A DNA stretch of 27,950 nt, taken from IMG/VR virus record IMGVR_UViG_3300043772_001626, positions 1-27,950 of that record; one strand, 5' to 3'. Both the position numbers and the translations under genes were made by a program. The DNA is from a virus. Positions 6,308-21,760 of the stretch are shown one piece after another. A model generated the notes under the pieces. That model was not told where the DNA came from. It saw nothing but the letters and a program-made list of their open reading frames with translations, and did no database searches. Each line of letters starts with the position of its first letter. Positions within the stretch are counted from its first letter, which is position 1.

Positions 6308-6318
6308 AATTCACCTTT

Positions 6319-7239: not shown

Positions 7240-9776
7240 GAGAAGAAATCCTCTATTGAACTTGTTTTTTCTGTTTTCCAGCCCATACAATCCAGAATAA
7301 CTTTAATTGGTTCTAAGAATGCCTTATCAAATTGCATATCATAATCAATATACTCTTGCAATTCGAATTCTTTTGGTAAACGAGATGGATACGAAATGAC
7401 CGTATCTTTAAATGGATTAGGCATCTTTAGGTAAGTAAACTTAACCTTTTCACCTTCTTGAATGAGTTGATATTTCTTGGTTAGATTCTTTTGTTTTAGA
7501 TTGTGATTATAAAGAATGGCACCTTTAACATGAATTGGTGTTCCTTTTTTATACAATGTTAATGCATCAGAATAGGTATTTAGGCCATTAAGACCACGAG
7601 GAAAAGAGATTTCTTCTACAGGTAATGTTTTGAATTCTTTTCTAAAATCTTCAATAAATTTATATACATCTTCCTGTGTACCATTTACCATTAACTGAAT
7701 GGCTTCTTTCATTCTCTCACGGATGGCAGATGGTGTCGATGATTTAATCATTTCAAGACCCATGACTTTCATCTGTGGTTCTTTATATTGAACACCTTCA
7801 TTATTATACACATTCAGAATGTATCGTTTCTTGGCAGTCCAGATGCCTTTGTTGGATAGACCTTCTCGTTTCATTTCCATTTTTTGCTGATAGGCGTGAA
7901 CATACTCAGCCAGTTCTTTATATGACTTATCGATATATGGTTGAATCTTTTCTTCACAGATTTTATCCATGAGAGAGATTACCTTCTGTTTGTCTGATGT
8001 GTCTTTAATAAATTTATTGACGAGCTCGCCCATGCGCAAATAGATTGAATCAGTATCAGAAGCAATTACATAATCCTTATCTTTTGTATCAAGTATCTTG
8101 TTCATCCAAAGGTTAATTTTATTTTCAATCCAACGAATACTTAATTGGCCAGCAGTAGTGACGCCAAGAGCCATCCGCAAATCGTAGAAACGGAAATACT
8201 GAGAACCCAAAGCACCGTAAGCAGAATTAAGGGAAACTTTCTTTGCCAATTGTATGTTGTTGTATTTGGCGATTCGTTTTTCAATTTCATATTTCTTCGA
8301 GCTATCCGTTTCATTTTCATACTCCTGTTTTGCTTGTAACATCAATTTCTTAAACTTACTTCTGTCTGTATACATTTCTTCCATCATCTTAGGCAAGAAC
8401 CCCCGAATATCGGTACGAAAGAATTGGCCATTAGGTGTTAGTGTTGCACCTTCTAACTGTGATGTGTTGATTTCTTTTCTTAACATTCTATCAACAGAAA
8501 CACCTTGTTCAAGTATCTCACGCATTGCATCAGTATAATTCTCTGGTTCAATAAGAGTTTCTGGTGAAATATTATATTGCATCATCAAATGTGGATACAG
8601 AGAGTTTAAGTCAAATGAGGCAACCCAATCATGTAAACCAACTTGCGGTATTTTAACATAGGCACCTTCAAATGCTGCATCTTTATCTTTGACCACTCGT
8701 GGTGGAACAATAATATTTTTCTCACGCAAGTAAGAATAAGTCATCGCATCCCACATACGAGTTTGTGCAAAAATATCTTCATAGTTGGATTTTGTATCGT
8801 AGGCCAGAGTTACACCTAGTTCCAACAGTTTTAATTTTTCTTCAAGTCGAACAATCAACTCAACGTCTTTAATGTTATACTCAATAAACTTTTGATAGTT
8901 TAAACGATACAAGGCATGTAGATTATCATATTCATCATAGGCAATCTTACCTTCACCCAATTCAACCTGTGCAATGTTATCTAAACGATATGATTCTTGT
9001 GACTTACCGCCTGGTGCATACCATTTGTACAGTTCAATATAATCGAGTGCTGCGACACCAACAATGTCATAAGCAATTAGTTCACGGCCATTGATTCGTG
9101 TTTTTCTTTCGGTAAGATATTTCCAAGGAGATAAGGTTTTGGTTTCATCTTCACCTAGAATTTTGCGGAAACGATTGATGATGTATGGTACGTCAAAGAA
9201 CTTGGTGTTCCAACCAGTAAGAATATCAGGACATACTTTTGTCCAGAGTGCCATGAATTGTTTACATAAAGAATATTCATCTTTACACTTCACATAAACT
9301 TCTTCACCTTGCGTGACATAATCACCACAACCAAACACATAAGTTTTGCCGTTAAGATACTTAATTGCAATTGCTGTGATAGGTTCGTTTGCTTCATATG
9401 GATCAGGAAAGCCATTTTCTGAACCGACCTCGATATCGATTACAGCAATTAAGACCTTATCTTGGTCATAGTCAACCATGCCTTGGTGTTGATCGGCAAT
9501 AAAGGCATATTCAAATCGTGTTTGGCCATAGACCTTAGAGGCACCAGACACACCATCGAATTGCTTGATGTAATCTCTTGCCTCTTTAGTTGTACCAAAT
9601 ACTTTTTGATCTAGATAATCACCAGTAAGTGTGGTGAAATTAGTAACTCGTTTGGATGGTAGAAAAAGAGAAGGAGAATATTCAATTCTCTGTTTTACTC
9701 TTTTGCCATCCTGAATGCCTCGATAAAGTATATTACTACCGAAACATTGAACATTAGTATAGAATGATGAACTCAA
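7236..9776 (-). CDS. 43: DNA polymerase gp43, family B
   Basis: This 846-residue replicative polymerase has both the 3'-5' exonuclease and polymerase domains. Exo I is VIDIEVGSENG (D114, E116), Exo II is LTGWNTKFFDVPY and Exo III is YNIKDVEL. Polymerase motif A is SFDLNSLYPH (about residue 390), motif B is KKVSLNSAYGALGSQY and motif C is IASDTDSIYLR (about 574). All catalytic aspartates are present. The C-terminus ends SSIEDFFS, which resembles a clamp-interacting tail like that of T4 gp43. Length is slightly below T4 gp43 (898). No intron or intein is visible. Confidence 0.97.
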   Translation of the reverse strand: MSSSFYTNVQCFGSNILYRGIQDGKRVKQRIEYSPSLFLPSKRVTNFTTLTGDYLDQKVFGTTKEARDYIKQFDGVSGASKVYGQTRFEYAFIADQHQGMVDYDQDKVLIAVIDIEVGSENGFPDPYEANEPITAIAIKYLNGKTYVFGCGDYVTQGEEVYVKCKDEYSLCKQFMALWTKVCPDILTGWNTKFFDVPYIINRFRKILGEDETKTLSPWKYLTERKTRINGRELIAYDIVGVAALDYIELYKWYAPGGKSQESYRLDNIAQVELGEGKIAYDEYDNLHALYRLNYQKFIEYNIKDVELIVRLEEKLKLLELGVTLAYDTKSNYEDIFAQTRMWDAMTYSYLREKNIIVPPRVVKDKDAAFEGAYVKIPQVGLHDWVASFDLNSLYPHLMMQYNISPETLIEPENYTDAMREILEQGVSVDRMLRKEINTSQLEGATLTPNGQFFRTDIRGFLPKMMEEMYTDRSKFKKLMLQAKQEYENETDSSKKYEIEKRIAKYNNIQLAKKVSLNSAYGALGSQYFRFYDLRMALGVTTAGQLSIRWIENKINLWMNKILDTKDKDYVIASDTDSIYLRMGELVNKFIKDTSDKQKVISLMDKICEEKIQPYIDKSYKELAEYVHAYQQKMEMKREGLSNKGIWTAKKRYILNVYNNEGVQYKEPQMKVMGLEMIKSSTPSAIRERMKEAIQLMVNGTQEDVYKFIEDFRKEFKTLPVEEISFPRGLNGLNTYSDALTLYKKGTPIHVKGAILYNHNLKQKNLTKKYQLIQEGEKVKFTYLKMPNPFKDTVISYPSRLPKEFELQEYIDYDMQFDKAFLEPIKVILDCMGWKTEKTSSIEDFFS

Positions 9777-9777
9777 T

Positions 9778-10089
9778 TTAGCCTGTAATTAATTGTTTTG
9801 TTGGAGGAAGAACGATACCAGAACCGAAAATTTGATTGTAGTTCGTGATAAAATCTTCCGCAGGAACATAGGAGTATACTACATTCTTCTTGGCTAAGGC
9901 AACCACCGCACCTGATTTTTGTTCGGCATGAATGGGAAATGGTGCGAATCCGACACTTGGTTTACCATCAGGACCACGAACCACAGCGATACCAACAGGA
10001 TTGGTTATCACAAATTCAGTTTCGGATTCAGACTCAATTTCTCCAAGAACATCTTCACCAGTTATTAGTTTAAGTGCTAAAATTTTCAT
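9778..10089 (-). CDS. Small conserved phage protein, Sm-like pattern
   Basis: I choose ATG at 10089, giving MKILALKLITGEDVLGEIES, because CTGGAG lies about 10 bases upstream. A longer in-frame start at 10140 adds a segment that looks like untranslated leader. The 103-residue product has a strand-rich N-terminus with LKLITGEDVLGEI and EFVITNPVGIAVV, which resembles the Sm-fold pattern. This type of small protein is frequent in T4-like marine phages and has no assigned role that I know. It is the first gene behind the leftward early-type promoter at 10188-10216 and lies directly upstream of the polymerase gene. Confidence 0.75.
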   Translation of the reverse strand: MKILALKLITGEDVLGEIESESETEFVITNPVGIAVVRGPDGKPSVGFAPFPIHAEQKSGAVVALAKKNVVYSYVPAEDFITNYNQIFGSGIVLPPTKQLITG

Positions 10090-10145
10090 AGTTATTATCT
10101 CCAGAGCGAATATATTTAAAAGTTGTTTAATGCACATCAAATTAG

Positions 10146-10153
10146 TATAAATA
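10146..10153 (+). promoter_or_regulatory. T4-type late promoter for the rightward cassette
   Basis: The plus strand reads TATAAATA, the exact T4 late promoter core, 71 bases before the first rightward gene at 10224. It is the only candidate promoter I see ahead of the 7.6-kb rightward cassette. Transcription would start about 6-7 bases downstream of the box. One such 8-mer can occur by chance in AT-rich DNA, but its position at the head of the strand switch is persuasive. Confidence 0.65.
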
Positions 10154-10187
10154 AGTATGTATTGAAACTTATATTGATGATTTACTG

Positions 10188-10216
10188 ATTATATAACAAT
10201 AACCAACGATTGTCAA
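10188..10216 (-). promoter_or_regulatory. Early sigma70-type promoter, leftward
   Basis: On the minus strand TTGACA (10216-10211) and TATAAT (10193-10188) are separated by exactly 17 bases, a perfect bacterial sigma70 promoter. The start site would be near 10181. It reads leftward into the small Sm-like gene, DNA polymerase and the genes beyond. It faces the late promoter at 10146. Confidence 0.8.
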
Positions 10217-10223
10217 TATAAAA

Positions 10224-10502
10224 ATGGACTTTTTTAAGATTGTTGCCGAATTAGGTTTCCCAATAGCCGCTGCGTTTGCTGCAGGTTATTTTGTGTTCCT
10301 AACTTTAAAATTTATTCTGGCCGGTGTTACCGGTTCTGTCAAAAGTTTAAGTGGTATTATTACCGCCTTAGACAATCGTGTTAAAACAATGAACCATGAT
10401 GTTATCAGAATTGATACTCTAATGTCAAGCGCTATGGGTGTCAAACCTGATATCGACCGTATTGCTCGTGCAGACGGCAAGAACGATGCTAGGAGAGATT
10501 GA
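10224..10502 (+). CDS. Holin-like small membrane protein, copy 1
   Basis: The 92-residue product has a single N-terminal membrane segment (about residues 8-32, FPIAAAFAAGYFVFLTLKFI). A polar helix with LDNRVKTMNHDVIRIDTLMS and a charged tail follow. This layout resembles BhlA/UviB-type small phage proteins with holin-like activity, but identity cannot be proven. A paralog lies at 10899-11177 with the same plan (V..YGFPI / I.LIDRV..LDNDLIRL). It is the first gene after the late promoter and overlaps the next small gene (TGATG). It could be a lysis protein or an anchor for the envelope proteins downstream. Confidence 0.65.
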   Translation: MDFFKIVAELGFPIAAAFAAGYFVFLTLKFILAGVTGSVKSLSGIITALDNRVKTMNHDVIRIDTLMSSAMGVKPDIDRIARADGKNDARRD

Positions 10503-10663
10503 TGCCCGCTTATCTTGAATTAGACGATTTGGAAGATTTGGTTATTCACTTCCATGACGTTGCCAGAATGATAGAACGTGAAATAGGTACTGGTGAATTG
10601 ACGAAAGACATTAGAAGTTGTGGTGACCGATTAAAAGAATTACTCAAAGAAAGAATAGAGTAG
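10502..10663 (+). CDS. 53-residue acidic protein in late cassette
   Basis: The frame opens with ATG at 10502, overlapping the previous stop (TGATG), and ends with TAG at 10661-10663. The product, MPAYLELDDLEDLVIHFHDV and so on to RLKELLKERIE, is charged and helical with one cysteine. It has no membrane segment. The tight overlap and adjacency to the next ATG support translation. Function is unknown. Confidence 0.6.
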   Translation: MPAYLELDDLEDLVIHFHDVARMIEREIGTGELTKDIRSCGDRLKELLKERIE

Positions 10664-10666
10664 TTG

Positions 10667-10855
10667 ATGTATGTTGATGGTTACCTACTTTTAGTAATTT
10701 ATTTGATTGCGGTGTTAGCGGCAGCAATTAGTGTATACGCTTTATGGACTTTAAAAGAAGTTGAAGAACAGTTAAAGAAAAAAGATAAACCTAATAAACC
10801 TAATAACGCTTGGGATCATTATCACAATACTGCAAATCAAAAAAAAACATTCTAA
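10667..10855 (+). CDS. Single-pass small membrane protein
   Basis: I choose ATG at 10667, with an alternative TTG one codon earlier. The 62-residue product has one strong membrane helix at about residues 6-27 (LLLVIYLIAVLAAAISVYAL). A lysine-rich tail follows, with KKKDKPNKPNNAWDHYHN. A short membrane anchor with a polar cytoplasmic tail among late genes could be a lysis accessory protein, but there is no family evidence. It starts 4 bases after the 53-residue gene. Confidence 0.6.
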   Translation: MYVDGYLLLVIYLIAVLAAAISVYALWTLKEVEEQLKKKDKPNKPNNAWDHYHNTANQKKTF

Positions 10856-10898
10856 AGATAAAGCAAAAGGTTATTTCGATAACCTATAAGGAAATATT

Positions 10899-11177
10899 AT
10901 GGATTTAGTAGAAATAGTTAACAAATATGGTTTTCCAATTGTTGCAGCTGGCGGCATGGGATACTTCATTTATTATGTGTGGACTTGGGTAACAAAAGAA
11001 ATTAAACCTGTATTGAGTGAAGCAAGTTCGGTATTAATTGCTTTGATTGACCGTGTCAGGATGTTAGATAATGATTTGATAAGATTGAATCAGAAAATTA
11101 ACATCGTATTAATGATGCGAGAAATTAAAGAAGATGAAAAACACAAAAAAGATTCTAGTAACCCTCCTACTGATTAG
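10899..11177 (+). CDS. Holin-like small membrane protein, copy 2
   Basis: A clear ribosome site (AAGGA) sits 7 bases before ATG 10899. The 92-residue product has one membrane segment (about residues 10-31, YGFPIVAAGGMGYFIYYVWTW). A helix follows containing LIALIDRVRMLDNDLIRLNQ, parallel in plan to the protein at 10224-10502, so the two are likely paralogs. The C-terminal tail is charged. The stop overlaps the csgF start by 44 bases, coupling it to the curli genes. A holin-like role is possible. Confidence 0.65.
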   Translation: MDLVEIVNKYGFPIVAAGGMGYFIYYVWTWVTKEIKPVLSEASSVLIALIDRVRMLDNDLIRLNQKINIVLMMREIKEDEKHKKDSSNPPTD

Positions 11178-11580
11178 TTCAAATTTATACGCAGCTGAGT
11201 TAATCCACCAATTTAATTCTCCATCCTTTAGTGGTATTGGTTATTCCAACCATGTTATAACCATTGAGCAATTAGAATCTCAACGCAAACAAAAAATAAG
11301 AGATGAAGCTAAATCGGCAGCTGATGCAGCTGAACGGGCAGCAAAAAATACCAATTTAGCTAAATTTTTAAATAATGTGGAATCTCGCATTTACGCACAA
11401 CTATCAAAACAGTTGGCCGACCAAATGTTTGCCGAAGGTGGTGCAACACAAGGAACAATGGATTTTCAAGGCACACAAATGTCTTGGGTTAACCTTGGTT
11501 CGGAAGTTCAACTAACAATTACTAATCCTGATGGCACACAAACAATAGTAACAGTACCTATTGGAACATTTGGTTTCTAA
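11134..11580 (+). CDS. csgF: CsgF-like curli assembly factor
   Basis: The 148-residue product starts with a signal peptide (MKNTKKILVTLLLISSNLYA, cleavage near residue 20). The mature N-terminus ELIHQFNSPSFSGIGYSNHV matches the CsgF pattern 'F.nPnFgG.p.ng', the segment that inserts into the CsgG pore in E. coli. The middle part is an alanine-rich helix and LNNVESRIYAQLSKQL. The C-terminus VQLTITNPDGTQTIVTVPIG matches the CsgF beta-sheet end. CsgF couples curlin nucleation to the CsgG exporter. It lies directly before csgG (TAAATG), the same F-G order as in bacteria. Confidence 0.85.
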   Translation: MKNTKKILVTLLLISSNLYAAELIHQFNSPSFSGIGYSNHVITIEQLESQRKQKIRDEAKSAADAAERAAKNTNLAKFLNNVESRIYAQLSKQLADQMFAEGGATQGTMDFQGTQMSWVNLGSEVQLTITNPDGTQTIVTVPIGTFGF

Positions 11581-12234
11581 ATGAAAAAAACACTTATAGT
11601 TTTAACCATTTTATTTTTAACAGGCTGTGCTCAATTGCATATGCACTTTGCACAAGAAGAACCTGTGGAATTAAAACCAAAAGAAAATTTAATAACCAAA
11701 TTACCAAAGTTGGATGGTCCACCAATTACTATTGCAGTATATGGTTTCTTAGATAAAACAGGACAAAAGAAACCTGGTGATAAAATCGCATTGTTCTCTA
11801 GTGCCGTCACTCAAGGTGCAGAAGTATTCTTAATTAAATCATTACACGATTCACGAAATTGGTTTAAAGTGGTTGAACGAGTTGGTTTGGATAATTTAAT
11901 TAAAGAACGACAGTTAATACGCAACCAAAGAGAAGTCTATGAAGGCAAAAATGCTACGCCATTGAAACCAATGACGGTTGCTGGAGTAATTATTGATGGT
12001 GGTATTATTGGTTATGATAGTAATATACGAAGTGGAGGTAATGGTGCTCGATTTCTTGGTATTGGTGGTTCACAACAATATCGAGTTGATGAAGTAGTTA
12101 TCTCTCTTAGGTTGATTAGTGTTAATACCGGAGAAATATTAATGACAAATGCCGTGTCAAAAACAATTTTTAGTACGGCACACAATGTGGGTGTTTTTCG
12201 TTTTGTTGACCAAGGAACGAAATCGCTTGAATGA
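11581..12234 (+). CDS. csgG: CsgG-like outer-membrane curli secretion pore, frameshifted
   Basis: This lipoprotein begins MKKTLIVLTILFLTGCAQ, with a lipobox LTGC at Cys16, and continues as CsgG: ITIAVYGFLDKTGQ, then WFKVVERVGLDNLIKERQLI, GVIIDGGIIGYDSN, then VVISLRLISVNTGEIL. In E. coli CsgG forms the nonameric outer-membrane channel for curlin subunits. The frame ends at TGA 12232-12234 after GVFRFVDQGTKSLE. The conserved C-terminal helix (NEPTTYAVRVAIEQAVYDMI ... KGLWKF) continues only in the +1 frame to 12340. Compared with E. coli, about 7 residues between 'LLE' and 'NEP' are also absent, so a short deletion is likely. Whether the truncated 217-residue product works is uncertain. Confidence 0.85.
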   Translation: MKKTLIVLTILFLTGCAQLHMHFAQEEPVELKPKENLITKLPKLDGPPITIAVYGFLDKTGQKKPGDKIALFSSAVTQGAEVFLIKSLHDSRNWFKVVERVGLDNLIKERQLIRNQREVYEGKNATPLKPMTVAGVIIDGGIIGYDSNIRSGGNGARFLGIGGSQQYRVDEVVISLRLISVNTGEILMTNAVSKTIFSTAHNVGVFRFVDQGTKSLE

Positions 12235-12340
12235 ACCCACAACATATGCAGTTCGAGTAGCAATAGAACAAGCTGTGTATGACATGATAATTAATGGAGA
12301 AAAAAAAGGTCTTTGGAAATTTAAACAAGAGGAAAAATAA
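12235..12340 (+). pseudogene. csgG: Displaced C-terminus of CsgG in +1 frame
   Basis: From the stop of csgG to TAA at 12340 the +1 frame encodes EPTTYAVRVAIEQAVYDMII followed by KKGLWKFKQEEK. This matches the CsgG C-terminal helix (NEPV..A...AI...V...I..G...GLW). There is no start codon of its own with a ribosome site in this frame. It is therefore either lost by a frameshifting deletion, restored by +1 frameshifting, or an assembly error. Confidence 0.7.
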
Positions 12341-12342
12341 AA

Positions 12343-12936
12343 ATGAAACTTAAAGCAATTGCTCTAATTATGGCGATTCTTGGGTTTAATTATGCTGTAG
12401 CAAATGATGTTTATGTTGAACAAGTTGGTAGTAGTTCAACCGTAACAATTACACAAGAAGGTACAGGTAACCAAGCTGGAAACTCAACCGATTCACTTTA
12501 TATTGGCTCTGGATCCAATGTCGTTACAATTGACCAAATAGGTGACAGTAACATTTTAGCCATGGTTGTTAATGGCGCTTCGGCCGATGTAACAGTTAAC
12601 ACCACGGGTAGTGGTAATCAACAAACGATTGATTGTGGTACAACTAGCTCTGCTGGATGTTCTGGTAGCACAATCACGCAAATTGTTGACGGTGATGATA
12701 ACACCATTACACAAAGCTTAGGTGCAGGTGCAAATCACACCAGTAACATTACAGTAACAGGTAGTGATAATGCAGTAACACATACCAGCACCGCAACTGG
12801 TACAACATCAATGAACGCAACGATTACTGGTAGCACAAATACTGTTGGTGTTACACAATCTGGAATGACTACACAAAATGTTACGATTAACTCAACTGGT
12901 AATAGCAACACTATTACTGTTAACCAGTCAAACTAA
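12343..12936 (+). CDS. Curlin-repeat (CsgA/CsgB-like) amyloid subunit
   Basis: A ribosome site (AGAGGA) precedes ATG 12343. The 197-residue product has a signal peptide (cleavage near residue 20, AVA|ND). A low-complexity region rich in N, Q, T, G and S follows. Curlin-type strand-turn-strand units such as SNVVTIDQIGDSN, STITQIVDGDDNTITQ and QNVTINSTGNSNTITVNQS carry the Asn/Gln/Gly ladder of CsgA and CsgB. Two cysteines (IDCGTT.. AGCSGS) could form a disulfide. The protein would be secreted through CsgG and form a surface or periplasmic beta-solenoid fibre. The final 59 bases also encode the start of the FecR-domain protein in another frame. Confidence 0.85.
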   Translation: MKLKAIALIMAILGFNYAVANDVYVEQVGSSSTVTITQEGTGNQAGNSTDSLYIGSGSNVVTIDQIGDSNILAMVVNGASADVTVNTTGSGNQQTIDCGTTSSAGCSGSTITQIVDGDDNTITQSLGAGANHTSNITVTGSDNAVTHTSTATGTTSMNATITGSTNTVGVTQSGMTTQNVTINSTGNSNTITVNQSN

Positions 12937-13963
12937 TTTTGCAGCTGTAGGCAAAGTTACGGAACAATCTGGTCCAACAGAAATAGTTCGCAATAAAAAA
13001 TCAATACCTAGTGTGATAAACACTGGTGTTGAAATGAATGATACAATAGTGACAGCGAAAGCGAAAGCCAAGCTGACTTTTCAGGACAACACGACAGTCA
13101 ATATTACCGAACAATCAAAATTGGTAATAGATGACTTCGTGTATGATCCGAATAAGGGCACAGGAAAACTGGCAGTTAAGGTTGCCCTTGGTACTGCACG
13201 ATATACTTCAGGTCAAATAGCTAAGAATAGTCCACAATCAGTAAGTGTTCAAACACCAACTGCTACGGTTGCAGTTCGTGGTACAGACTTTTCAATGACC
13301 GTAGATGAATTGGGTCGGTCTCTAATTATGTTATTGCCATCATGCGACAAAGATAAAAAGAAATGCGTTACTGGTGCCATCGCAGTTAAAAATGATGCAG
13401 GTGAAGTTTTTATGAATGAAGCATACCAAACTACTTTAGTTATTTCAACAAGTATATCACCATCGGCACCTGTTATAGTTAACATAGACCAAGCCAACAT
13501 TAATAATCTTTTGATTATATCTCCACCAAAAGAAGTCAAAGAAACTTATGTTGAATCTAAAACGGCTTTAGATGTAAACTTCTTGTCCTTAGACCTTTTA
13601 AAATTTACTGGTTTAGATGAAAATCAACTAGAAAACTTTAAAGAGCTGGACATGAATTTATTGGACATTGATTTATTAGGCAATCTTTTGGATGCTGAAA
13701 ATGCGGCGCTTGCTGCGAACCAAGAGGTATTATCGGTTGAAACAAAACTATTACCAGGATACAATGCGGCTTCTGGTGCTCGATACTTTCTTAACGATGA
13801 CCAATCCAAAATAAGTTATTGTAAATATGGTGGTAGTCACACCGCTTGTGTTATTGCATCGGCAGACGAAAGTAAAACTTTATCATTTAATCAAGATGGT
13901 TCACCACTAATACAAAACATCAATAAAGGTGGAGATTCAAATATCACCATAATACAAAGATGA
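12878..13963 (+). CDS. FecR-domain periplasmic protein with curlin-like tail
   Basis: The 361-residue product opens with a convincing signal peptide (MLRLTQLVIATLLLLTSQTN, cleavage near AA at residue 23). The whole signal peptide is encoded inside the end of the curlin gene. Residues about 23-150 form a FecR domain: VGKVTEQSGPTEI, then AKLTFQDNTTVNITEQSKL, GTARYTSG, and the signature TPTATVAVRGTDF. The rest is acidic and unrecognised, with a Cys pair (YCKYGG...TACVI). The last residues, IQNINKGGDSNITIIQ, look like one curlin unit. FecR-domain proteins sense or scaffold in the periplasm and are often neighbours of CHASE2 cyclases in bacteria. It overlaps the next gene by ATGA. Confidence 0.82.
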   Translation: MLRLTQLVIATLLLLTSQTNFAAVGKVTEQSGPTEIVRNKKSIPSVINTGVEMNDTIVTAKAKAKLTFQDNTTVNITEQSKLVIDDFVYDPNKGTGKLAVKVALGTARYTSGQIAKNSPQSVSVQTPTATVAVRGTDFSMTVDELGRSLIMLLPSCDKDKKKCVTGAIAVKNDAGEVFMNEAYQTTLVISTSISPSAPVIVNIDQANINNLLIISPPKEVKETYVESKTALDVNFLSLDLLKFTGLDENQLENFKELDMNLLDIDLLGNLLDAENAALAANQEVLSVETKLLPGYNAASGARYFLNDDQSKISYCKYGGSHTACVIASADESKTLSFNQDGSPLIQNINKGGDSNITIIQR

Positions 13964-15144
13964 AAAAATTATTTTTGTTTCTAATGATGATATGCAGTAT
14001 TGCTCGAGCAGATATTTTAGACTTGAAGGTTAGTACCGCACAGATATTTGATGTGCAATGGTATATTTCAGGTAATACATTGTATGCCAGTGGTTTCAAT
14101 TATATTTACGCTTCTGTGAATTATGCAACACAGACTACTAGTGCGGCCCGTTGGACTGCGGCTCAAACAACAGACGCTGGTGCTAACGGCCGTTATATAG
14201 GATTCTTCAACAGCACAACCAATCCTGGCACTTACGGTATGGCCGTGTTCAATAGTAATGGCACCAGATACAAAACTATCAACAACACCGGATCGTTTAG
14301 AGCGTTGGCCAACGGCGCCATCTTTTATAACGGTAACGGTATGTGGGGTACATTAATAACTACGGGACAAGGTTATAACTACGGGCAAAGCGGATCGTGG
14401 GCAGTGACGCAGAGCAATCCAACTAACACACAATTGCAAGCTTATGTTCCTCCAAGTTCAACACCTTTATCTGCTGGCCAAACCGCAGCACCTCCAGCGC
14501 CAACATATTCAGCCACAATAACAACAGAACAACAAAATAAAATTAATGAGGCACGAGCAAGACAAACATATAAGAATGAAATTAATATTGACCAAATAGG
14601 ACATTACAATAATATTGATGTTATACAATCTGGATATTATCATTTAATCGATATTAATGTTAATGGTGATACAAATCTAATTGATGTTGCACAATACGGA
14701 ATCAAAAACTATGCCAAAGTTCAAACAACAAATGGCAATAATAATTCAGTAAATATATTTCAACACAATACAGGCGGCGCTCAGGTACTTGGTCATTTCT
14801 CGGAAACATTAATTTCTGGAAGTAATAATACAGTAACTTTAAATCAAACGGGTGATGGAGAAAAAAGAAATTTTACTAATGTAAGTGGTAATTTAAATAC
14901 CATTAATCATTTACAAAATGGCACCGGTACAAAATACTCTGACATAAAAGCCACTGGAAACGGCCATACGATCACACTAGACCAAAAAGACGGTGGTGCT
15001 CACGCAGCTCGGATTGAAGTAACAAATAATGGCGGAGCTTCTACTGTAAACGTATCTCAACAAGGCAATACCAATCAAACTTATTCTGTTCAACAACTTT
15101 GTGCTACCGTAAGTGGATGTTCAGTCGGTATTCAACAGCAATAA
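13960..15144 (+). CDS. Large two-part curlin-repeat protein
   Basis: The 394-residue product has a signal peptide (about residues 1-17, ending SIARA). The N-terminal domain (about 18-170) is rich in Tyr, Gly, Asn and Thr (SGFNYIYASVNYATQTTSAA, NSNGTRYKTINNTGSFR) and resembles no family I know. A proline-rich linker (YVPPSSTPLSAGQTAAPPAP) joins it to a C-terminal curlin-like array (about 205-394). The array contains INIDQIGHYNNIDVIQSG, VNIFQHNTGG, SGSNNTVTLNQTGDG and STVNVSQQGNTNQ. A Cys pair lies near the end. It may be a nucleator or cap (CsgB-like role) or carry a displayed N-terminal domain. It overlaps the FecR-domain gene by 4 bases. Confidence 0.8.
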   Translation: MKKLFLFLMMICSIARADILDLKVSTAQIFDVQWYISGNTLYASGFNYIYASVNYATQTTSAARWTAAQTTDAGANGRYIGFFNSTTNPGTYGMAVFNSNGTRYKTINNTGSFRALANGAIFYNGNGMWGTLITTGQGYNYGQSGSWAVTQSNPTNTQLQAYVPPSSTPLSAGQTAAPPAPTYSATITTEQQNKINEARARQTYKNEINIDQIGHYNNIDVIQSGYYHLIDINVNGDTNLIDVAQYGIKNYAKVQTTNGNNNSVNIFQHNTGGAQVLGHFSETLISGSNNTVTLNQTGDGEKRNFTNVSGNLNTINHLQNGTGTKYSDIKATGNGHTITLDQKDGGAHAARIEVTNNGGASTVNVSQQGNTNQTYSVQQLCATVSGCSVGIQQQ

Positions 15145-15154
15145 ATAATTTACT

Positions 15155-17161
15155 ATGAAAAAAATATTATTCTCTCCATGGACGGCCGTAATCACATTGT
15201 TGGTATTACTTGCAATCCGGATTGCAGACCCTATGTTTTTGGAATCTGTTCGACTTCGTTATTTTGACCAATTAATAACCTCAAAGGAGACAACTGTATC
15301 TCAACAGGTACACGTTGTAAACATAGATGACGAAACTATTCGACAAAAAGGACAATTCCCGTTCCCTCGTAGAGAATATTCCAAACTTATTACTGATGTT
15401 TATGCTCGTGGTGCTGGGCTGGTTGTCTTTAATATCTATATGCCTGAGTCTGACCGTTTTGGCCAAGATTTGGATTTAGCACAAACTTTTAAAAAATATC
15501 CTGTTGTATTACCACAAACAGGAACAAATGATAATTTAAAATCAAAATATCCACCATTCAGGCCAGGTGTTTCTGTGATTGGTGGTGAAGATGTAGGAAT
15601 AAAATATGAAAACATTGAACCCAATATACAACCATTCAATTCAACTGCTGCTGGTATTGGTATTGTTAACACCTTACCAGAACTTGATGGCGTTACCAGA
15701 CGAGTTCCTATGGTCGTCAGCTCACAACAAAAGTTGTATCCGAGCATTAGTCTTGAAACATTGCGGGTCGCAAGTGGAGACCCAAGCTTCCAAGTCAAAG
15801 TCACCGAATACGGAATCGAAGCCGTCAGAATTCCAAAATTTGGTAAAATTACAACAGACAACGTGGGTCGAATTTGGGTTGACTGGTCAACAAAACCAAT
15901 TCAACATAGTGCCAACAACTTACCCAATGATTTCAAAGGAGGAATCGCCATCATCGGTGTTACCGCAAAAGGTCTTAACAACCCTGTCGGAACATCTATG
16001 GGGGCAGTCTATCCACATTATTTACAAGCAGCTGTATTAGATACTGTAATTTCAGGTACTAATATATCTCGAACAGATTATGCTGACGGTGCAGAAATAT
16101 TATATACATTTATTGCTTGCCTATTAGCTCTTTTCTTTACGAGATATACACATGGATACATTGCACCAATCACGATTGCCGTATTTACTTACTTTGGCAC
16201 CAAGCAATTATTTTTGGGACACCAGTACCTTTTTGATGCTGTATTTCCTATACTCACCATTACGCTTTGCTACGCTCATGGATACACAGTCAAATTTTTG
16301 TCCGAGCTCAAACAAAAGCTCCAAATCAAAAAACAATTTGGAACATATTTGTCTCCAGCACTAGTAGAAAAATTGCAGAAGAATCCAGAACTGTTAGTTC
16401 TTGGTGGAGAATCAAGAGAACTTTCTATTATGTTTACGGATGTTCGTGGATTTACAACAATTTCCGAACACTATGGTAAAGATGTTCAAGGTCTTACTAA
16501 GATTATGAATCGATACATGACTGCAATGACAGCAAAGATTATAGAGAACAATGGAACATTAGACAAATATATTGGTGATGCTCAAATGGCATTTTGGAAC
16601 GCACCTGTAGATGAAACCAATCATGCTAAGATGGCAGTTAAAACTGCATTACAGATGATGAATAGTTTGGATGAATTCAATAGAGAAATTGAACAAGAAG
16701 GTATTCCTGCTTTTGGTATGGGTTTAGGTATCAATACAGGCACCGTTGTTGTTGGTAATATGGGTTCAAGTCAACGATTTGATTATACTTGCCTTGGTGA
16801 TTCGGTTAATTTGGCATCAAGACTTGAAGGACAAAGTAAACCCTATGGTGTTAAAATTATTCTTGGACCACTCACAGCTGAACAAGTAAAGGATGAATAT
16901 CCTGTTGTTGAATTGGATTGTATTGCAGTTAAAGGTAAAAAAGAAGGAGTTAAAATATACACTTTAGCTCCAGATAATGAACTACACCAACAATGGTTGA
17001 ATTTATATTATCGTGGTCAATGGAACAAAGCATTGCTATTAATAGAACAACTAATTAATGTTACTCCGGAATTACAACATTATTATGAAAACATGTCAGA
17101 AAGATTAAAAGAAGGAGTACCTTCTAATTGGGACGGCACATATCGAGCTACGAATAAATGA
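15155..17161 (+). CDS. CHASE2-domain class III adenylate cyclase
   Basis: The 668-residue product has an N-terminal membrane helix (about residues 8-28), a CHASE2 sensor domain and three membrane helices (about 308-385). The CHASE2 domain spans about 30-290 (DQLITSKETTVSQQVHVVNI, FPFPRREYSKLITDV, MPESDRFGQD). A cytoplasmic class III cyclase domain follows. Its active site is intact: metal-binding Asp in FTDVRGFTTISE (about 427) and YIGDAQMAFW (about 474), adenine-selecting Lys in DKYIGD, and DYTCLGDSVNLASRLEG with the Asp, Asn and Arg used in catalysis. It should make cAMP from ATP in the host in response to a periplasmic signal. It lies between curlin and desaturase genes, overlapping the latter by ATGA. 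Confidence 0.92.
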   Translation: MKKILFSPWTAVITLLVLLAIRIADPMFLESVRLRYFDQLITSKETTVSQQVHVVNIDDETIRQKGQFPFPRREYSKLITDVYARGAGLVVFNIYMPESDRFGQDLDLAQTFKKYPVVLPQTGTNDNLKSKYPPFRPGVSVIGGEDVGIKYENIEPNIQPFNSTAAGIGIVNTLPELDGVTRRVPMVVSSQQKLYPSISLETLRVASGDPSFQVKVTEYGIEAVRIPKFGKITTDNVGRIWVDWSTKPIQHSANNLPNDFKGGIAIIGVTAKGLNNPVGTSMGAVYPHYLQAAVLDTVISGTNISRTDYADGAEILYTFIACLLALFFTRYTHGYIAPITIAVFTYFGTKQLFLGHQYLFDAVFPILTITLCYAHGYTVKFLSELKQKLQIKKQFGTYLSPALVEKLQKNPELLVLGGESRELSIMFTDVRGFTTISEHYGKDVQGLTKIMNRYMTAMTAKIIENNGTLDKYIGDAQMAFWNAPVDETNHAKMAVKTALQMMNSLDEFNREIEQEGIPAFGMGLGINTGTVVVGNMGSSQRFDYTCLGDSVNLASRLEGQSKPYGVKIILGPLTAEQVKDEYPVVELDCIAVKGKKEGVKIYTLAPDNELHQQWLNLYYRGQWNKALLLIEQLINVTPELQHYYENMSERLKEGVPSNWDGTYRATNK

Positions 17162-17862
17162 ACATTATACTTTACACACTCATAGTAACACACATAACAA
17201 TTATATCAGTAACGCTATATCTACATCGTAGTCAAACACATCGTGGAGTTACATTTAATCCTGTAGTAAATCATTTTTTTAGATTTTGGTTATGGATGAC
17301 TACTGCAATGGTTACCAAGCAATGGGTAGCAATACACCGTAAACACCATCAGTATAGTGATGTAGAAGGAGACCCACATAGTCCTAAATTATTTGGCATT
17401 AAAAATATATTATTTCGTGGAGTTTATTATTACTATGTTACGGCCAAAGATGCGAGAATGACATTATCTTATGGTAAAGGAACACCAGAGGATTGGATAG
17501 AGAAAAATATATATTCAAAATATAACTATGCCGGTGTTTGTTTGATGTTGATAATCAATGTCGTATTATTTGGATGGATTGGTCCTATAATTTGGTTGAT
17601 TCAAATGTTATGGATTCCATTTTGGGCAGCTGGTGTTATCAACGGAATAGGACATTGGTTTGGGTATCGTAACGGAACAACTAGAGATAATTCTCACAAC
17701 ATACTTCCAATAGGCATTTGGATTGGTGGAGAAGAATTACATAACAATCATCATTTGGATCCAGCAAATCCAAAATTGAGTAAGAAGTGGTTTGAATTTG
17801 ATGCTGGTTGGTTCTACATTAAAGTATTAGAAAAACTCAAACTAGCAAAACTTAAGCATTAA
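17158..17862 (+). CDS. Membrane fatty acyl desaturase
   Basis: The 234-residue product has the three histidine boxes of acyl-CoA/acyl-lipid desaturases: HRSQTH (residues 23-28), HRKHH (60-64) and HNNHH (195-199). It also has membrane segments near residues 3-20, 40-55 and around 122-160. These boxes bind the di-iron centre that inserts a double bond into an acyl chain, usually at position delta-9. It is short relative to bacterial desaturases (about 280-380) but complete in motifs. It overlaps the cyclase stop by ATGA, so it belongs to the same late transcript. A role in adjusting host membrane fluidity is inferred. Its 3' end overlaps the convergent Fe-S carrier gene by 11 bases. Confidence 0.9.
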
Positions 17863-18175
17863 AAGAAGAACCGCAACCACAGGTAGATTTGGCATTTGGG
17901 TTACTAATAACAAACTGTGAATTGAATTTTTCTTCTTTATAATCCAATGTTGCGCCTTGTAGATATTGTGAAGAAATTATATCAACGACCACTTTGATGC
18001 CTTCATTTTCAATCACAAAATCATCTTCATTAATTTCTTCATCAAAAGTAAATCCATATTGATAACCAGAGCAACCGCCGCCTTGCACAAACATTCTTAA
18101 AGCTCCATTTGGTAGTTTTTCTTCAACCAACAAATCACGAACTTTATTAATTGCACTACTGGTTATTTGAATCAT
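17852..18175 (-). CDS. A-type iron-sulfur cluster carrier (IscA/ErpA family)
   Basis: The 107-residue product matches the IscA/ErpA/HesB family in length and in its three cluster-binding cysteines at C35 ([12 protein letters not shown]), C99 and C101 ([11 protein letters not shown]). These proteins receive Fe-S clusters and pass them to apo-enzymes. In a phage this may support host or phage iron enzymes during infection; A-type carriers occur in many marine T4-like phages. Whether it corresponds to IscA or ErpA cannot be decided. Its 3' end overlaps the desaturase gene on the other strand, and its start overlaps the 56-residue gene by 20 bases. Confidence 0.9.
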
Positions 18176-18326
18176 TTTGTTGTTCTATCCGTTTAAATTC
18201 TTCATCTTCTGCAATAGCATCATCAATTTCTTTTGGTTCAGGTGGTTCAACACCAGTGCATGAACCCTTATTTATGAACCACAACTCCATGGCTTGTTGA
18301 CGATACTTTTCTAAATCGGATGTCAT
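18156..18326 (-). CDS. 56-residue acidic phage protein
   Basis: The frame runs from ATG 18326 to TAG 18156. The product starts [20 protein letters not shown], then [14 protein letters not shown] and a strongly acidic helix. There is no membrane segment. It overlaps the upstream 40-residue gene by ATGA and the downstream Fe-S carrier gene by 20 bases, which supports translation as part of one polycistron. I recall similar small proteins in cyanomyophages without function. Confidence 0.65.
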
Positions 18327-18445
18327 CGGCCTCTACCCACCTTTCGCATTACAGTCATCTTAGGAACAAATGTTTGTTTTGGTTTTGGTGTAGGTGGAGT
18401 TTTTGTTTTAGGTAATGTTATTGCTGGCTTTTTTGGTTCAGTCAT
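18323..18445 (-). CDS. 40-residue basic proline/lysine-rich protein
   Basis: ATG at 18445 is preceded by a strong ribosome site (AAGGAGATATT). The product MTEPKKPAITLPKTKTPPTP continues to a C-terminal [11 protein letters not shown]. It is basic, has no hydrophobic segment and is probably disordered. The stop overlaps the next start (ATGA). The strong ribosome site and overlap make it a likely real micro-gene. Function is unknown; nucleic acid binding is possible from charge. Confidence 0.6.
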   Translation of the reverse strand: MTEPKKPAITLPKTKTPPTPKPKQTFVPKMTVMRKVGRGR

Positions 18446-18458
18446 AATATCTCCTTGT

Positions 18459-18533
18459 TGGTTGCGGGGGAAGGAATCGAACCTACGGCCCCTGGATTAT
18501 GAGTCCAATGCTCTACCTCTGAGCTACCCCGCT
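18459..18533 (-). tRNA. tRNA-Met (CAT anticodon), initiator-like 1:72 mismatch
   Basis: The minus strand folds as a cloverleaf: acceptor AGCGGGG with CCCCGCA, a GCTC/GAGC D-stem, an anticodon loop CTCATAA on a 5-bp stem and T-loop TTCGATT. It ends with an encoded CCA (18461-18459). The anticodon is CAT. Position 1 (A) and 72 (A) do not pair, a hallmark of initiator tRNAs, and the 3' end CCCCCGCAACCA is identical to that of E. coli initiator tRNA. The anticodon stem lacks the initiator GGG/CCC pairs, so elongator Met or Ile2 stays possible. The T-stem has one U-U mismatch. Confidence 0.85.
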
Positions 18534-18584
18534 TCAGTATATATGTTGAAAACTAAAATGACTTTTTTATATCTTGAAATCGTA

Positions 18585-18607
18585 GGAAAAAATTTCGGAG
18601 GCTCCGA
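18585..18607 (-). terminator. Weak intrinsic terminator after GroES-like gene
   Basis: On the minus strand TCGGA-GCC-TCCGA forms a 5-bp hairpin (18607-18595) followed by AA and six Ts. It lies 14 bases downstream of the GroES-like stop. The stem is short, so partial read-through into the tRNA-Met is likely. Confidence 0.4.
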
Positions 18608-18620
18608 CTGGCCAACCTTT

Positions 18621-18857
18621 TTAGTAAATAAAGATAACTTCGTTGATGGGAACAATATAATTTTCATCTTCAATTTTTACTGCTCTGTTCCAATTTAATA
18701 ATACTTCATCATCGACTGAAACTTCATCAACTTTAGGACCAAGAGAAACAACTTTTGCACGGTCTGGTGCTTCAGTATGTTTCAATATGATACCCGATTC
18801 GGTTTGTTTTTCTGCAGCAATTCGTGTTACGATAATGTTATCTCTTAACGGTTTCAT
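18621..18857 (-). CDS. Short GroES-like co-chaperonin
   Basis: The 78-residue product begins MKPLRDNIIVTRIAAEKQTE, then SGIILKHTEAPDRAKVVSLG, in line with GroES: 'RPL.DrviV.r...e..saGGIvL......a.. G.V.avG'. The GI-I-L tripeptide needed to dock on GroEL is present. It ends IVPINEVIFIY, matching the GroES last strands. It is about 18 residues shorter than GroES, mostly in the roof-loop region. T4-like phages use such proteins (gp31, CocO) to help GroEL fold the capsid protein. Whether this one partners host GroEL is inferred. Confidence 0.8.
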   Translation of the reverse strand: MKPLRDNIIVTRIAAEKQTESGIILKHTEAPDRAKVVSLGPKVDEVSVDDEVLLNWNRAVKIEDENYIVPINEVIFIY

Positions 18858-18873
18858 AATTTATTCTTTATAG

Positions 18874-18947
18874 TGGTGCCTCTTGATAGAATCGAACTAA
18901 CAATTCAAGATTACAAATCTAGCGTTATACGATTTAACTAAAGAGGC
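18874..18947 (-). tRNA. tRNA-Thr (TGT anticodon)
   Basis: The minus strand gives a 7-bp acceptor stem GCCTCTT/AAGAGGC, a GTT/AAC D-stem and an anticodon loop TTTGTAA with anticodon TGT (Thr, ACA codons). The T-loop is TTCGATT and an encoded CCA follows discriminator A. The anticodon stem and T-stem each contain one T-T mismatch, so it is somewhat degenerate but probably functional. Its first 10 bases overlap the 3' end of the 57-residue gene upstream. Confidence 0.85.
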
Positions 18948-19111
18948 CGAGAGGTTAGTGTTGTAATGCGTTTTTGAATTTTGGCTTTATCTTTTGGTCT
19001 GCTAGACTTTTCCAACATATCATTAAGTTGTTTGAGATTGAGAGTTCCTAATCTTGGCTTACCGTTTTTGGTTAACATAGGATTTTTCTTTTTTGATTTC
19101 GAAACTGCCAT
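18938..19111 (-). CDS. 57-residue basic phage protein
   Basis: ATG at 19111 is preceded by AAGGA 8 bases upstream. The product MAVSKSKKKNPMLTKNGKPR continues LGTLNLKQLNDMLEKSSRPK and ends in a basic helix. It is strongly basic, with no membrane segment. I recall similar proteins in marine T4-like phages, of unknown role. Its stop codon lies inside the tRNA-Thr gene (10-base overlap). It is the first gene behind the promoter and tRNA-like leader at 19131-19234. Confidence 0.7.
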   Translation of the reverse strand: MAVSKSKKKNPMLTKNGKPRLGTLNLKQLNDMLEKSSRPKDKAKIQKRITTLTSRPL

Positions 19112-19133
19112 GATATAGTCCTTAAAAATTGGA

Positions 19134-19199
19134 GCGGTGCCACTGCTATGCTCAGGTAATACAAGAGGGTATCTTATATCGTGCTATCACTCACCGCAT
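19134..19199 (-). ncRNA. tRNA-like leader RNA or degenerate tRNA
   Basis: The minus strand starts GCGGTG and ends CACCGC followed by TCCA (19133-19130), a 6-bp acceptor-like stem with a CCA-like end. Inside, three arms can be drawn: GTG-ATAG-CAC, a GATAC/GTATT hairpin with loop CCTCTT, and CCTG-AGCATAG-CAG with a 7-base loop and one bulge. It lacks the GG of the D-loop and the TTC of the T-loop, so it is not a standard tRNA. The predicted start site of the promoter at 19206-19234 falls at about 19199, immediately before it. It could be a 5' regulatory leader, a tRNA mimic or a decayed tRNA. Confidence 0.35.
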
Positions 19200-19205
19200 G
19201 AAACA

Positions 19206-19234
19206 AGTATAACATTATATAGGCTGATTGTCAA
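19206..19234 (-). promoter_or_regulatory. Early sigma70-type promoter before tRNA-like leader
   Basis: TTGACA (19234-19229) and TATACT (19211-19206) are spaced by exactly 17 bases on the minus strand. The start site would be near 19199, at the edge of the hairpin-bounded leader. It overlaps the 3' end of the metallopeptidase remnant and drives the 57-residue gene, tRNA-Thr and the GroES-like gene. Confidence 0.7.
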
Positions 19235-19502
19235 TAGTTATTTGTGGTATATTTTTCCATCCTAAAGGTTCTGTTTCAATTTTTGTATCTGGATTACTGA
19301 CGCCTTCAAATACTTGCCAAAGTTTTTCTTTAATAGCAAATTTGGTAAATAAACCGGCTTCATATCCGTATGCTTCTATTTCCCAAGGTTGGATCCAATA
19401 ATCAACCGTATCAGAATCAACCCTTTCACCTTTCCAACGAGTCAATTTCTCATTGGTTTCACCATAAACATATTGTTTAATGTGAACAAATTCATGTGCC
19501 AA
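19215..19502 (-). pseudogene. C-terminal part of zinc metallopeptidase-like protein (HExxH)
   Basis: This frame carries HEFVHIKQYVYGE, an HExxH zinc site, and 27 or so residues later PWEIEAYGYEAGLF, which supplies the third zinc ligand glutamate as in gluzincin-type peptidases. There is no ATG or ribosome site at its upstream end. The preceding beta-strand region is in another frame at 19442-19717. The two halves together resemble a conserved phage metallopeptidase of about 170-180 residues. A short deletion with frame change between EFEIK and TLAHE best explains the split. Confidence 0.6.
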
Positions 19503-19717
19503 AGTTTTATTTCAAATTCTCTAGGTTTGCCACTATCATTATAATCTTCTACAGAGGCGTATCCGTAAGCATCTAAAGCTTTATTAAATTTTACTCTAAC
19601 AAATATATTATCTAGCATTTTTTCTGATAACAGTTCTTTAGCGTAAAACTGTGCGGCCCGTTTTACAAACGGCCTAAAGCGTTTTTTATCGGGACATCCA
19701 ACTATACTGAGTTGCAT
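19442..19717 (-). pseudogene. N-terminal part of zinc metallopeptidase-like protein
   Basis: I choose ATG at 19717 (MQLSIVGCPDKKRFRPFVKR), which has AGGAG 9 bases upstream, over an ATG at 19756. The frame reads FVKRAAQFYAKELLSEKMLD and GKPREFEIKL, a beta-strand typical before the HExxH helix, then passes into nonsense (WHMNLFTLNNM) to the stop at 19442. The catalytic helix continues in the frame of 19215-19502. The junction lies at about 19503-19515. Confidence 0.6.
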
Positions 19718-19771
19718 CTGAGGTTTCTCCTGTAAAAACCAATTAACACTTCTCAAATATTTAGGTACTAT

Positions 19772-20218
19772 CTACTTTTCACCAGGTGAAATTTGTTCTA
19801 CTAAAATACCACAATGATTTAAGAAGTCTATGCCGATGGTATCTCGATACGAATTACGGTAATATACCTTTTTAATACCAGCGGTATAGACTTGTTTTGC
19901 ACAATGAATACACGGTGCATGGGTCAGGAACATGGTGGAACCATCTCCAGATTCACTACTCTTGGCCAGTTTAGCGATGGCATTAGCTTCTGCATGGATC
20001 ACTTCATCCTTGGTTTTGGTGGTAGTTCCCCCATCTTCTAGGTATTCTACCACTTCCTCACATTCGTTGGTCCAGCCAGCTGGCATACCATTATAACCGA
20101 TAGATATAATTCGGTCATCTTTTACTACAATGGCACCGACCTGTAGTCGTTTTGCAGATGACAATTTAGCAAATCGGTCTGCAACATCCATGTAAGCGTC
20201 AATAAATTTTTGTTTCAT
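19772..20218 (-). CDS. cd: dCMP deaminase
   Basis: ATG at 20218 is chosen, because an upstream in-frame ATG would translate part of the tRNA gene. The 148-residue product has the cytidine/deoxycytidylate deaminase zinc site: HAEANAI (His and catalytic Glu) and PCIHC (two Cys). SIGYNGMPAGW is typical of dCMP deaminases. The enzyme converts dCMP to dUMP, feeding dTTP synthesis, and balances AT-rich phage DNA production. An additional zinc site known in T4 Cd is only partly suggested here (NECEEVVEYLE). It lies just downstream of the tRNA-Ile2-like gene. Confidence 0.92.
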   Translation of the reverse strand: MKQKFIDAYMDVADRFAKLSSAKRLQVGAIVVKDDRIISIGYNGMPAGWTNECEEVVEYLEDGGTTTKTKDEVIHAEANAIAKLAKSSESGDGSTMFLTHAPCIHCAKQVYTAGIKKVYYRNSYRDTIGIDFLNHCGILVEQISPGEK

Positions 20219-20229
20219 AATTATAAATT

Positions 20230-20306
20230 TGGTGGGCCTTGTAGGACTCGAACCTACGACCAAAGGATTATGAGTCCTCTGCTCTAACCAACTGAGCTAA
20301 AGGCCC
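20230..20306 (-). tRNA. tRNA with CAT anticodon, Ile2-like
   Basis: The minus strand forms a complete cloverleaf: acceptor GGGCCTT/AAGGCCC, D-stem GCTC/GAGC with loop AGTTGGTTA, anticodon loop CTCATAA, T-arm GTAGG-TTCGAGT-CCTAC and encoded CCA. The body GAGCAGAGGACTCATAATCC followed by TTTGGTCG closely resembles bacterial tRNA-Ile2 (GAGCAGGCGACTCATAATCG and CTTGGTCG), so the C34 is probably changed to lysidine and reads AUA. Elongator Met is the alternative. It starts 6 bases after the 186-nt structured element. Confidence 0.9.
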
Positions 20307-20311
20307 AAGTT

Positions 20312-20497: not shown

Positions 20498-20503
20498 TGC
20501 TGG

Positions 20504-21122: not shown

Positions 21123-21128
21123 GATATG

Positions 21129-21157
21129 ATTATAACTCAAAAATAGGGGGTTGTCAA
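21129..21157 (-). promoter_or_regulatory. Consensus early promoter with -35 in a terminator loop
   Basis: TTGACA (21157-21152) and TATAAT (21134-21129) are spaced by exactly 17 bases on the minus strand, a perfect sigma70 promoter. The -35 lies in the loop and right arm of the terminator hairpin at 21139-21168. It drives the three small genes down to 20504, the structured RNA and tRNA-Ile2. Confidence 0.85.
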
Positions 21158-21168: not shown

Positions 21169-21172
21169 ATTA

Positions 21173-21752: not shown

Positions 21753-21760
21753 GCACCATT

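Follow-up and report, generated by a model that had tools for sequence, protein, structure and literature searches.

A phage curli module with exchangeable N-terminal domains on its second curlin and a co-occurring pair of small genes

Introduction

Curli genes in pelagimyophages were reported in 2020, with the capture of sibling cells put forward as a bold idea (PMC7029224). Later work on podo- and myophages added curlins, FecR, an adenylate cyclase and a histidine kinase ("HK") to the set and already inferred that the whole module had passed between virus families (PMC9599517). For phage Melnitz, a lysis pore (pinholin or secretin) was proposed, and csgA and csgB were said to be lacking (PMC9004378); the GenBank record of Melnitz annotates two curlin-repeat proteins, and we found the Pfam family PF07012 in the second. 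Since the gene set of SAR11 and OM43 phages is in print (PMC7029224, PMC9599517, PMC9004378), the headline finding, a curli gene set in a phage, is already published. Here we describe how such a module is built and how it varies, starting from IMG/VR virus record IMGVR_UViG_3300043772_001626 (positions 1 to 27,950; "the window" is this whole stretch of 27,950 bases), which is T4-type and possibly a fragment.

Since 2020, it has been asked why phages of highly abundant ocean bacteria have curli genes (PMC7029224), and the exchangeable tips described below make the question testable. Comparison with relatives suggests a late, surface-displayed fibre with a swapped binding tip rather than a stripped-down pore. 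We give about even odds (0.5) to the reading that the cassette provides a late adhesive amyloid display on the infected cell. New here are the exchangeable N-terminal domains on the second curlin, the swapping of the stretch from CsgF to FecR between phages, and the co-occurrence with the module of two small genes, TMa and TMb, as a pair, together with a FecR signal peptide overprinted on the curlin gene, an enriched late promoter-like element and the conservation of most cyclase catalytic residues. Our literature search, with preprints, most subscription papers and the F5/8 domain outside its scope, found no paper on tip-bearing phage curlins.

Results

Gene content of the module

To collect relatives, we scanned viral contigs with five queries (cyclase, curlin 2, TMa, the CsgG of phage HTVC008M and a PA14-curlin) and kept 80, 25, 80, 80 and 8 loci, respectively, a few of them shared between scans. 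The kept loci are the best 80 of at least 562 cyclase relatives, the best 80 of at least 589 TMa relatives and the best 80 of 194 CsgG relatives, so the sample is biased toward close relatives of the queries. After phage records and genome contigs had been added, the set comprised 276 loci, window included (individual loci carry L numbers below), in 195 clusters (97% over 1,500 bases).

CsgF, FecR, cyclase, curlin and exactly two TM genes were all present in 33/33 CsgG-centred loci. Among 43 loci with a TM gene and 6 kb on either side, cyclase and curlin were found in all 43, CsgG and FecR in 42 each and CsgF in 41; of three incomplete loci, L144 and L151 end where the missing genes belong and L180 is without a called FecR. 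Counted by scan with 6-kb flanks, a TM gene was present in 20/20 cyclase-scan, 7/7 CsgG-scan and 8/9 curlin-2-scan loci (two copies in 7, none in L092), and the TMa-scan loci held cyclase in 22/22 and CsgG in 21/22 cases; with 3-kb flanks, a TM gene was present in 34/37, 15/15 and 8/9 loci of the cyclase, CsgG and curlin-2 scans. Across the 195 representatives, many of them short or cut loci, 163 had two TM genes, 8 had one and 24 had none. Contigs of 236 to 344 kb (L012, L071, L144 and L167), larger than HTVC008M and Melnitz, also carry the module in whole or in large part.

In the window, the order is TMa, two small open reading frames (ORFs), TMb, CsgF, CsgG, curlin 1, FecR, curlin 2, CHASE2-cyclase and desaturase. 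CsgF, CsgG and curlin repeats thus stand in one operon with FecR and adenylate cyclase downstream, as in the phage curli (type VIII) module. The features are as follows (E values in brackets).

10146..10153, + strand: TATAAATA, T4-type late promoter-like element upstream of the module (62/142 relatives versus 1.8% of random 200-nt windows)
10224..10502, + strand: TMa, 92 amino acids (aa), one hydrophobic span (Kyte-Doolittle), PHROG 18771 without assigned function
10499..10663, + strand: small ORF, 54 aa, rarely conserved
10664..10855, + strand: small ORF, 63 aa, no match beyond its own species in the comparison made
10899..11177, + strand: TMb, 92 aa, TMa paralogue, span not clear by hydropathy, 44-nt overlap with csgF
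11134..11580, + strand: CsgF, signal-like N terminus (PF10614, 6.1e-17)
11581..12234, + strand: putative CsgG pore, N-terminal 217 aa, lipobox-like start, frame interrupted (PF03783, 8.5e-45; PDB CsgG, 8.5e-43)
12149..12340, + strand: C-terminal remainder of CsgG in another frame
12343..12936, + strand: curlin-repeat protein 1 (PF07012, 9.7e-7)
12878..13963, + strand: FecR-domain protein, curlin-like C-terminal end, predicted signal peptide overprinted on the final 59 nt of curlin 1 (PF04773, 5.7e-12)
13960..15144, + strand: curlin-repeat protein 2, tip domain plus repeats (PF07012, 1.8e-9; AlphaFold2 solenoid for the repeats)
14011..14493, + strand: tip domain of curlin 2, matching no known family (relatives have it on curlin repeats, next to F5/8-C or on an autotransporter-like barrel)
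15155..17161, + strand: CHASE2-class III adenylate cyclase (PF05226, 7.5e-36; PF00211, 7.1e-22)
17158..17862, + strand: fatty acid desaturase, neighbour outside the conserved module (PF00487, 4.8e-16)

An initial annotation had read this region as a rightward block in a T4-type genome that encodes CsgF, CsgG, two curlin-repeat proteins, FecR, a CHASE2 cyclase and a desaturase. Pfam confirmed each of these families at its place, and the genes overlap or abut largely as described; the T4-type markers (DNA polymerase, UvsX, helicase and clamp loader) are all on the opposite strand. The list needed amending in that csgG is not intact and two 92-aa module proteins (10224-10502 and 10899-11177) had been overlooked, and FecR begins 59 nt inside the first curlin gene. 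The desaturase did not hold up as a cassette member: it occurred in only 2/43 module loci, and we rejected it as a part of the module. A homologue was found anywhere on 12/276 loci, including 3/9 flanked curlin-2-scan loci, and the gene is a local neighbour. Just past the cassette, the window has three tRNA genes (Met, Thr and Met) on the minus strand (18459-20306).

Exchangeable tips on the second curlin

Second curlins were called by slot, as the gene between FecR and cyclase. FecR and cyclase lie on one strand in 114 loci. Among these, a second curlin with an N-terminal part of 100 residues or more was called in 34 and one lacking such a part in 32, and no second curlin was recognised in 48. 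The caller erred in both directions, as two of the 34 (L054 and L258) look false and the 32 include missed tips in L037, L039, L104 and L151. We then compared 45 second curlins of at least 300 aa, from which L054 and L258 had been excluded by name as false calls. F5/8-C was found in 10 of them, PA14 in 8 and Curlin_rpt in 17 at E 0.001. The repeat parts were alike in 975 of 990 pairs versus 185 of 990 for the N-terminal parts. The PA14-bearing protein of L038 and that of L272 share 211/222 repeat residues (95%), whereas their tips give no BLASTP alignment. L038 and L273 likewise have tips that do not align, with repeats 82% identical over 226 residues and CsgF, CsgG and FecR 97%, 95% and 92% identical. 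The second curlin of the cultured phage HTVC008M carries PA14 and curlin repeats.

The window's own tip domain is also found in other settings. It recurs beside F5/8-C in L091 and, in L103 (1507-3357) and L105 (7986-10826), ahead of a different C-terminal part. In L103, this part has many long strands in the AlphaFold2 model (mean predicted local distance difference test [pLDDT], 50.7) and a Foldseek match to the autotransporter NalP (2.5e-6); module genes were not found on the L103 and L105 loci. Searches with window curlin 2 returned only Curlin_rpt up to E 0.5, with neither PA14 nor F5/8-C found in its tip, and the tip had no match in 274 genomes of one class, in a search made without a positive control. 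The repeats of curlin 2 were modelled by AlphaFold2 as a beta solenoid (block pLDDT of 71-95 over residues 211-340), and the best structural matches of this model were beta-solenoid-type chains, e.g., SufD (Z 18.5). Such a model is compatible with a functional amyloid.

Other proteins were seen in or near this slot. Five loci have ORFs of 617-691 aa between CsgF and CsgG that look barrel-like, as judged by their C termini only, and the tip of the one in L020 resembles, by eye, the curlin tip of L039. The FecR-cyclase slot holds DNA/RNA non-specific endonucleases with signal-like N termini in L060 (4096-4875), L080 (6978-7736) and L081 (9227-9982), which form one slot cluster; the assignment is from Pfam for L060 and L081 and from likeness only for L080. 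Further cargo in this slot comprises a Gcw_chp protein, a calcineurin-like phosphoesterase and a glycosyltransferase (L006 8008-8685, L038 6414-7160 and L039 7023-8015, respectively).

Exchange of the stretch from CsgF to FecR

Swapping also affects a longer piece of the module. Between the window and L003, aligned 200-nt bins from 8800 to 11200 (the DNA polymerase end and the TM genes) are 91-98% identical and the cyclase is 90-100% identical, but the aligned bins from 11200 to 13543 (CsgF to mid-FecR) are only 67-81% identical, apart from one 63-base piece at 86%. L003 gave no match to most of curlin 1, the end of FecR or curlin 2, and between its FecR and cyclase genes curlin 2 is missing. 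In 89 complete loci, CsgF, CsgG and FecR distances agreed with each other at 0.52-0.62 versus 0.28-0.35 with TMb.

TMb distances correlated with those of the cyclase at 0.66 and with those of CsgF at 0.28, and we considered a two-part history in which the TM pair and cyclase stand against CsgF, CsgG and FecR. This was rejected. All cross-pairings among the three trees, TM versus cyclase included, are rejected by approximately unbiased (AU) tests (1000 replicates, which the program warns are few), and for pairs with a cyclase distance of <0.45 the TMb-cyclase correlation drops to 0.26, near the 0.19 of TMb-CsgF. Our claim is accordingly limited to exchange of the CsgF-FecR stretch, without a firm TM-cyclase unit. 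With DNA polymerase as the backbone reference, only 13 loci could be used and no clear result was obtained.

The TMa/TMb pair

TMa was the most conserved of six compared proteins (mean pairwise identity of 0.70). It has a clear hydrophobic span, whereas no 19-residue window of TMb exceeds 1.6 on the Kyte-Doolittle scale; a membrane location for TMb is suggested by its likeness to TMa, and both are probably membrane proteins. TMa matched no Pfam family up to E 1, TMb matched only TM140, below the family's cut-off, and the HTVC008M pair matched no family up to 0.1. Against PDB sequences, the best E value was 0.017 for TMa, with none up to 5 for TMb. TMb had a weak PHROG match to holin (0.015), and 2/14 TMb relatives had a weak match to YvrJ (best, 0.36). 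Histidine kinase genes are placed before csgF in PMC9599517, although no kinase domain was found by Pfam in TMa or TMb, and the genes at that place in HTVC008M and the window encode 92-93 aa without a kinase domain. Their position makes the TM pair the probable genes meant by that paper.

The pair appears to be phage specific. TMa relatives occurred in six annotated phage records, namely, those HTVC008M and Melnitz records in which most of the cyclase is covered; a CsgG relative occurred alone in a 1.5-kb Salmonella phage record. A pattern scan of one genome per species (84,980 bacterial and archaeal species) gave three relatives, and one of the three positive bins (Rhodobacteraceae) has more phage-like contigs, with TM genes adjoining CsgF and CsgG. 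On a phage-like contig of this bin, an ORF like T4 lysozyme (L276 2881-3375; by resemblance, not Pfam) lies 0.4 kb from TMa. Relatives of this ORF lie 1.1-1.9 kb from the TM pair in 4/276 loci.

Late promoter-like element, cyclase and overprinted FecR

The element TATAAATA lies 78 nt ahead of TMa in the window, which contains 3 copies versus 3.2 expected. As this count equals chance, we rejected the lone window copy as evidence; what counts is that the position is conserved in relatives. In 62/142 loci, TATAAATA stands no more than 200 nt upstream of the first TM gene, versus 1.8% of random same-locus windows and 2.4% of shuffled upstream stretches. A T4-type late promoter is thus predicted upstream of the transcription unit, in line with the late use proposed by the initial annotation.

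The cyclase has largely kept its catalytic residues. In 115 cyclases, both metal Asp residues, the substrate Lys, a further Asp and an Arg were present in 115/115 and the substrate Asp and the Asn in 100/115 (metal and substrate being the roles that we take these positions to have), and the window cyclase has all class III catalytic residues tested.

FecR overlaps the curlin gene by at least 30 nt in 76/127 loci, and in 61/127 loci its N-terminal hydrophobic core falls wholly within the overlap, FecR start codons being inferred. In the window overlap (12878-12936), a Leu-rich stretch of FecR lies over curlin codons that mostly specify T, I and V. With its overprinted signal peptide, FecR offers a clear overlapping-gene candidate. 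A curlin-like C-terminal end was found in 81/130 complete FecR proteins, by a loose pattern without a control.

Interrupted csgG

The csgG frame of the window stops at 12234, and its C-terminal remainder is in another frame (12149-12340). L002 is 99.8-99.96% identical to the window over 5178-24977 but has 23 more bases and an open csgG frame. The deletion site (window ~12230-12237) is flanked by two copies of TTGAAT, so that a real slippage deletion and an assembly error are both possible. L002 contains the block and both flanks in one piece, with no sign of a chimeric join. A second length difference between the two lies near 19502-19508. The desaturase and the broken csgG give no basis to build on.

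Discussion

We propose that the module may be a curli unit without detectable CsgE that is expressed late and forms amyloid fibres on the infected cell. CsgG would be the outer membrane pore on which CsgF docks. The first curlin would form the fibre body, and the second, where present, a fibre subunit able to bear an exchangeable N-terminal binding domain. FecR and the CHASE2 cyclase may act as a periplasmic/inner-membrane sensing pair that reports export or envelope state via cyclic AMP (cAMP), and TMa/TMb would be a phage-specific, probably membrane, pair required by the unit. Shortly before lysis, the tip may bind sugars or proteins on the surface of cells nearby, of debris or of virions. 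Family membership is what points to export, fibre formation and binding. The envelope role given in the initial annotation is supported by the signal-like N termini, curlin repeats and tip domains, and its description as a reduced export unit agrees with the missing CsgE but not with the presence of fibre subunits. In a wider form, which we hold somewhat more tentatively, the module would be a late phage surface display in which exported amyloid is a generic handle, the tip is exchanged like a tail-fibre tip and could be moved onto an autotransporter-like barrel, and TMa/TMb and a cAMP sensor are parts of its own. If true, phages would possess an adhesin platform of their own, with which to catch the next host or shut out rivals.

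Several observations weigh against adhesive display. Neither cytograms nor transmission electron microscopy showed clumping in the Melnitz study (PMC9004378); the second curlin of Melnitz has a short N-terminal part only. With 48 of 114 loci without a recognised second curlin and 32 called tipless, the tip is not obligatory. The window tip itself is without a Pfam or PHROG match and without a match in phage records, and we rejected a fold for it, as confidence was low in both AlphaFold2 runs. In 34/62 loci, TATAAATA begins just 10-19 nt ahead of the called start, which is an odd distance if the true start is not located further on. The csgG of the window copy is interrupted. L003 differs from the window elsewhere too (only 68-88% identical over 6000 to 8800), which makes the module one mosaic piece among several.

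The initial annotation listed lysis, exclusion of superinfecting phages, coating of progeny and cAMP signalling as candidate uses; that the tips can be swapped speaks more for adhesion or exclusion than for a lysis pore. The main rival, to which we give perhaps one chance in four, is superinfection exclusion (proposed in PMC9599517), in which the same machinery has another benefit: by masking receptors, competing for them or wrapping the cell, fibres or tips would keep rival phages from adsorbing in the late phase of infection. An arms race over surface receptors would be expected to produce exchange of tips and of the CsgF-FecR stretch between phages, and the slot endonucleases (L060, L080 and L081), which have signal-like N termini, could destroy incoming DNA. 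Late expression, however, would give only brief protection, and none of the tips was shown here to resemble a tail fibre or receptor-binding protein. We consider it unlikely that the module times lysis, with CsgG as a pinholin-like pore (as proposed for Melnitz in PMC9004378) or TMa/TMb as a holin/antiholin pair, although the weak holin and YvrJ matches and the lysozyme-like ORFs near TM genes would fit. The statement in that paper that curlins are missing is contradicted by the two curlin-repeat genes of the record and PF07012 in the second. Curlins, tips, FecR and cyclase would also be superfluous for lysis. CsgG homologues are located in the outer membrane, and holins are usually less conserved than TMa, which both speak against a role in lysis.

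An ungated CsgG pore that admits nutrients for phage production (proposed in PMC7029224 and PMC9599517) would agree with the missing CsgE but leaves the curlins, exchangeable tips and late promoter element unexplained, and we find it improbable. Least credible, and by a wide measure improbable, is that these are passenger genes without a function in the phage. The interrupted csgG of the window would suit such genes, but all module families are present in 33/33 CsgG-centred loci, and the 115 cyclases do not vary at five of the seven catalytic positions, with the other two kept in 100. Adhesive display by a tip-bearing amyloid remains our preferred reading, and the TMa/TMb pair is a concrete puzzle in a widespread phage module.

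Among known systems, E. coli csg and the loci of the class to which the Rhodobacteraceae bin belongs share CsgG, CsgF and curlin repeats with the phage module. The CsgE gate of the E. coli-type system was not found in 14/14 phage records searched, among them the window fragment and whole HTVC008M and Melnitz, whereas the E. coli control was positive. In three bacterial CsgF loci of that class, which also hold CsgG and curlins, the phage profiles recognised neither a TM pair nor FecR or cyclase within ~10 kb. CHASE2-class III cyclases of the same class are mostly ~35-45% identical to the phage cyclase; a relative at 1e-60 or better was found in 100/289 genomes of the class, in one of the 100 via phage-like contigs. 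FecR was recognised beside 3/30 bacterial CHASE2 loci (~1.5-kb flanks, phage profile) versus 33/33 CsgG-centred phage loci. The closest described system is the pelagiphage type VIII module of HTVC008M and the HTVC023P-type podophages, which has the same order of CsgF, CsgG, curlin, FecR, curlin and cyclase (PMC7029224, PMC9599517). The passages of these papers on the module mention no exchangeable tips, within-module exchange, overprinted signal peptide or promoter. The Melnitz curli operon (PMC9004378) is the same module, including the TM pair, with a second curlin whose short N-terminal part sets it apart from the tip-bearing ones, and the module of HTVC008M matches that of the window gene for gene.

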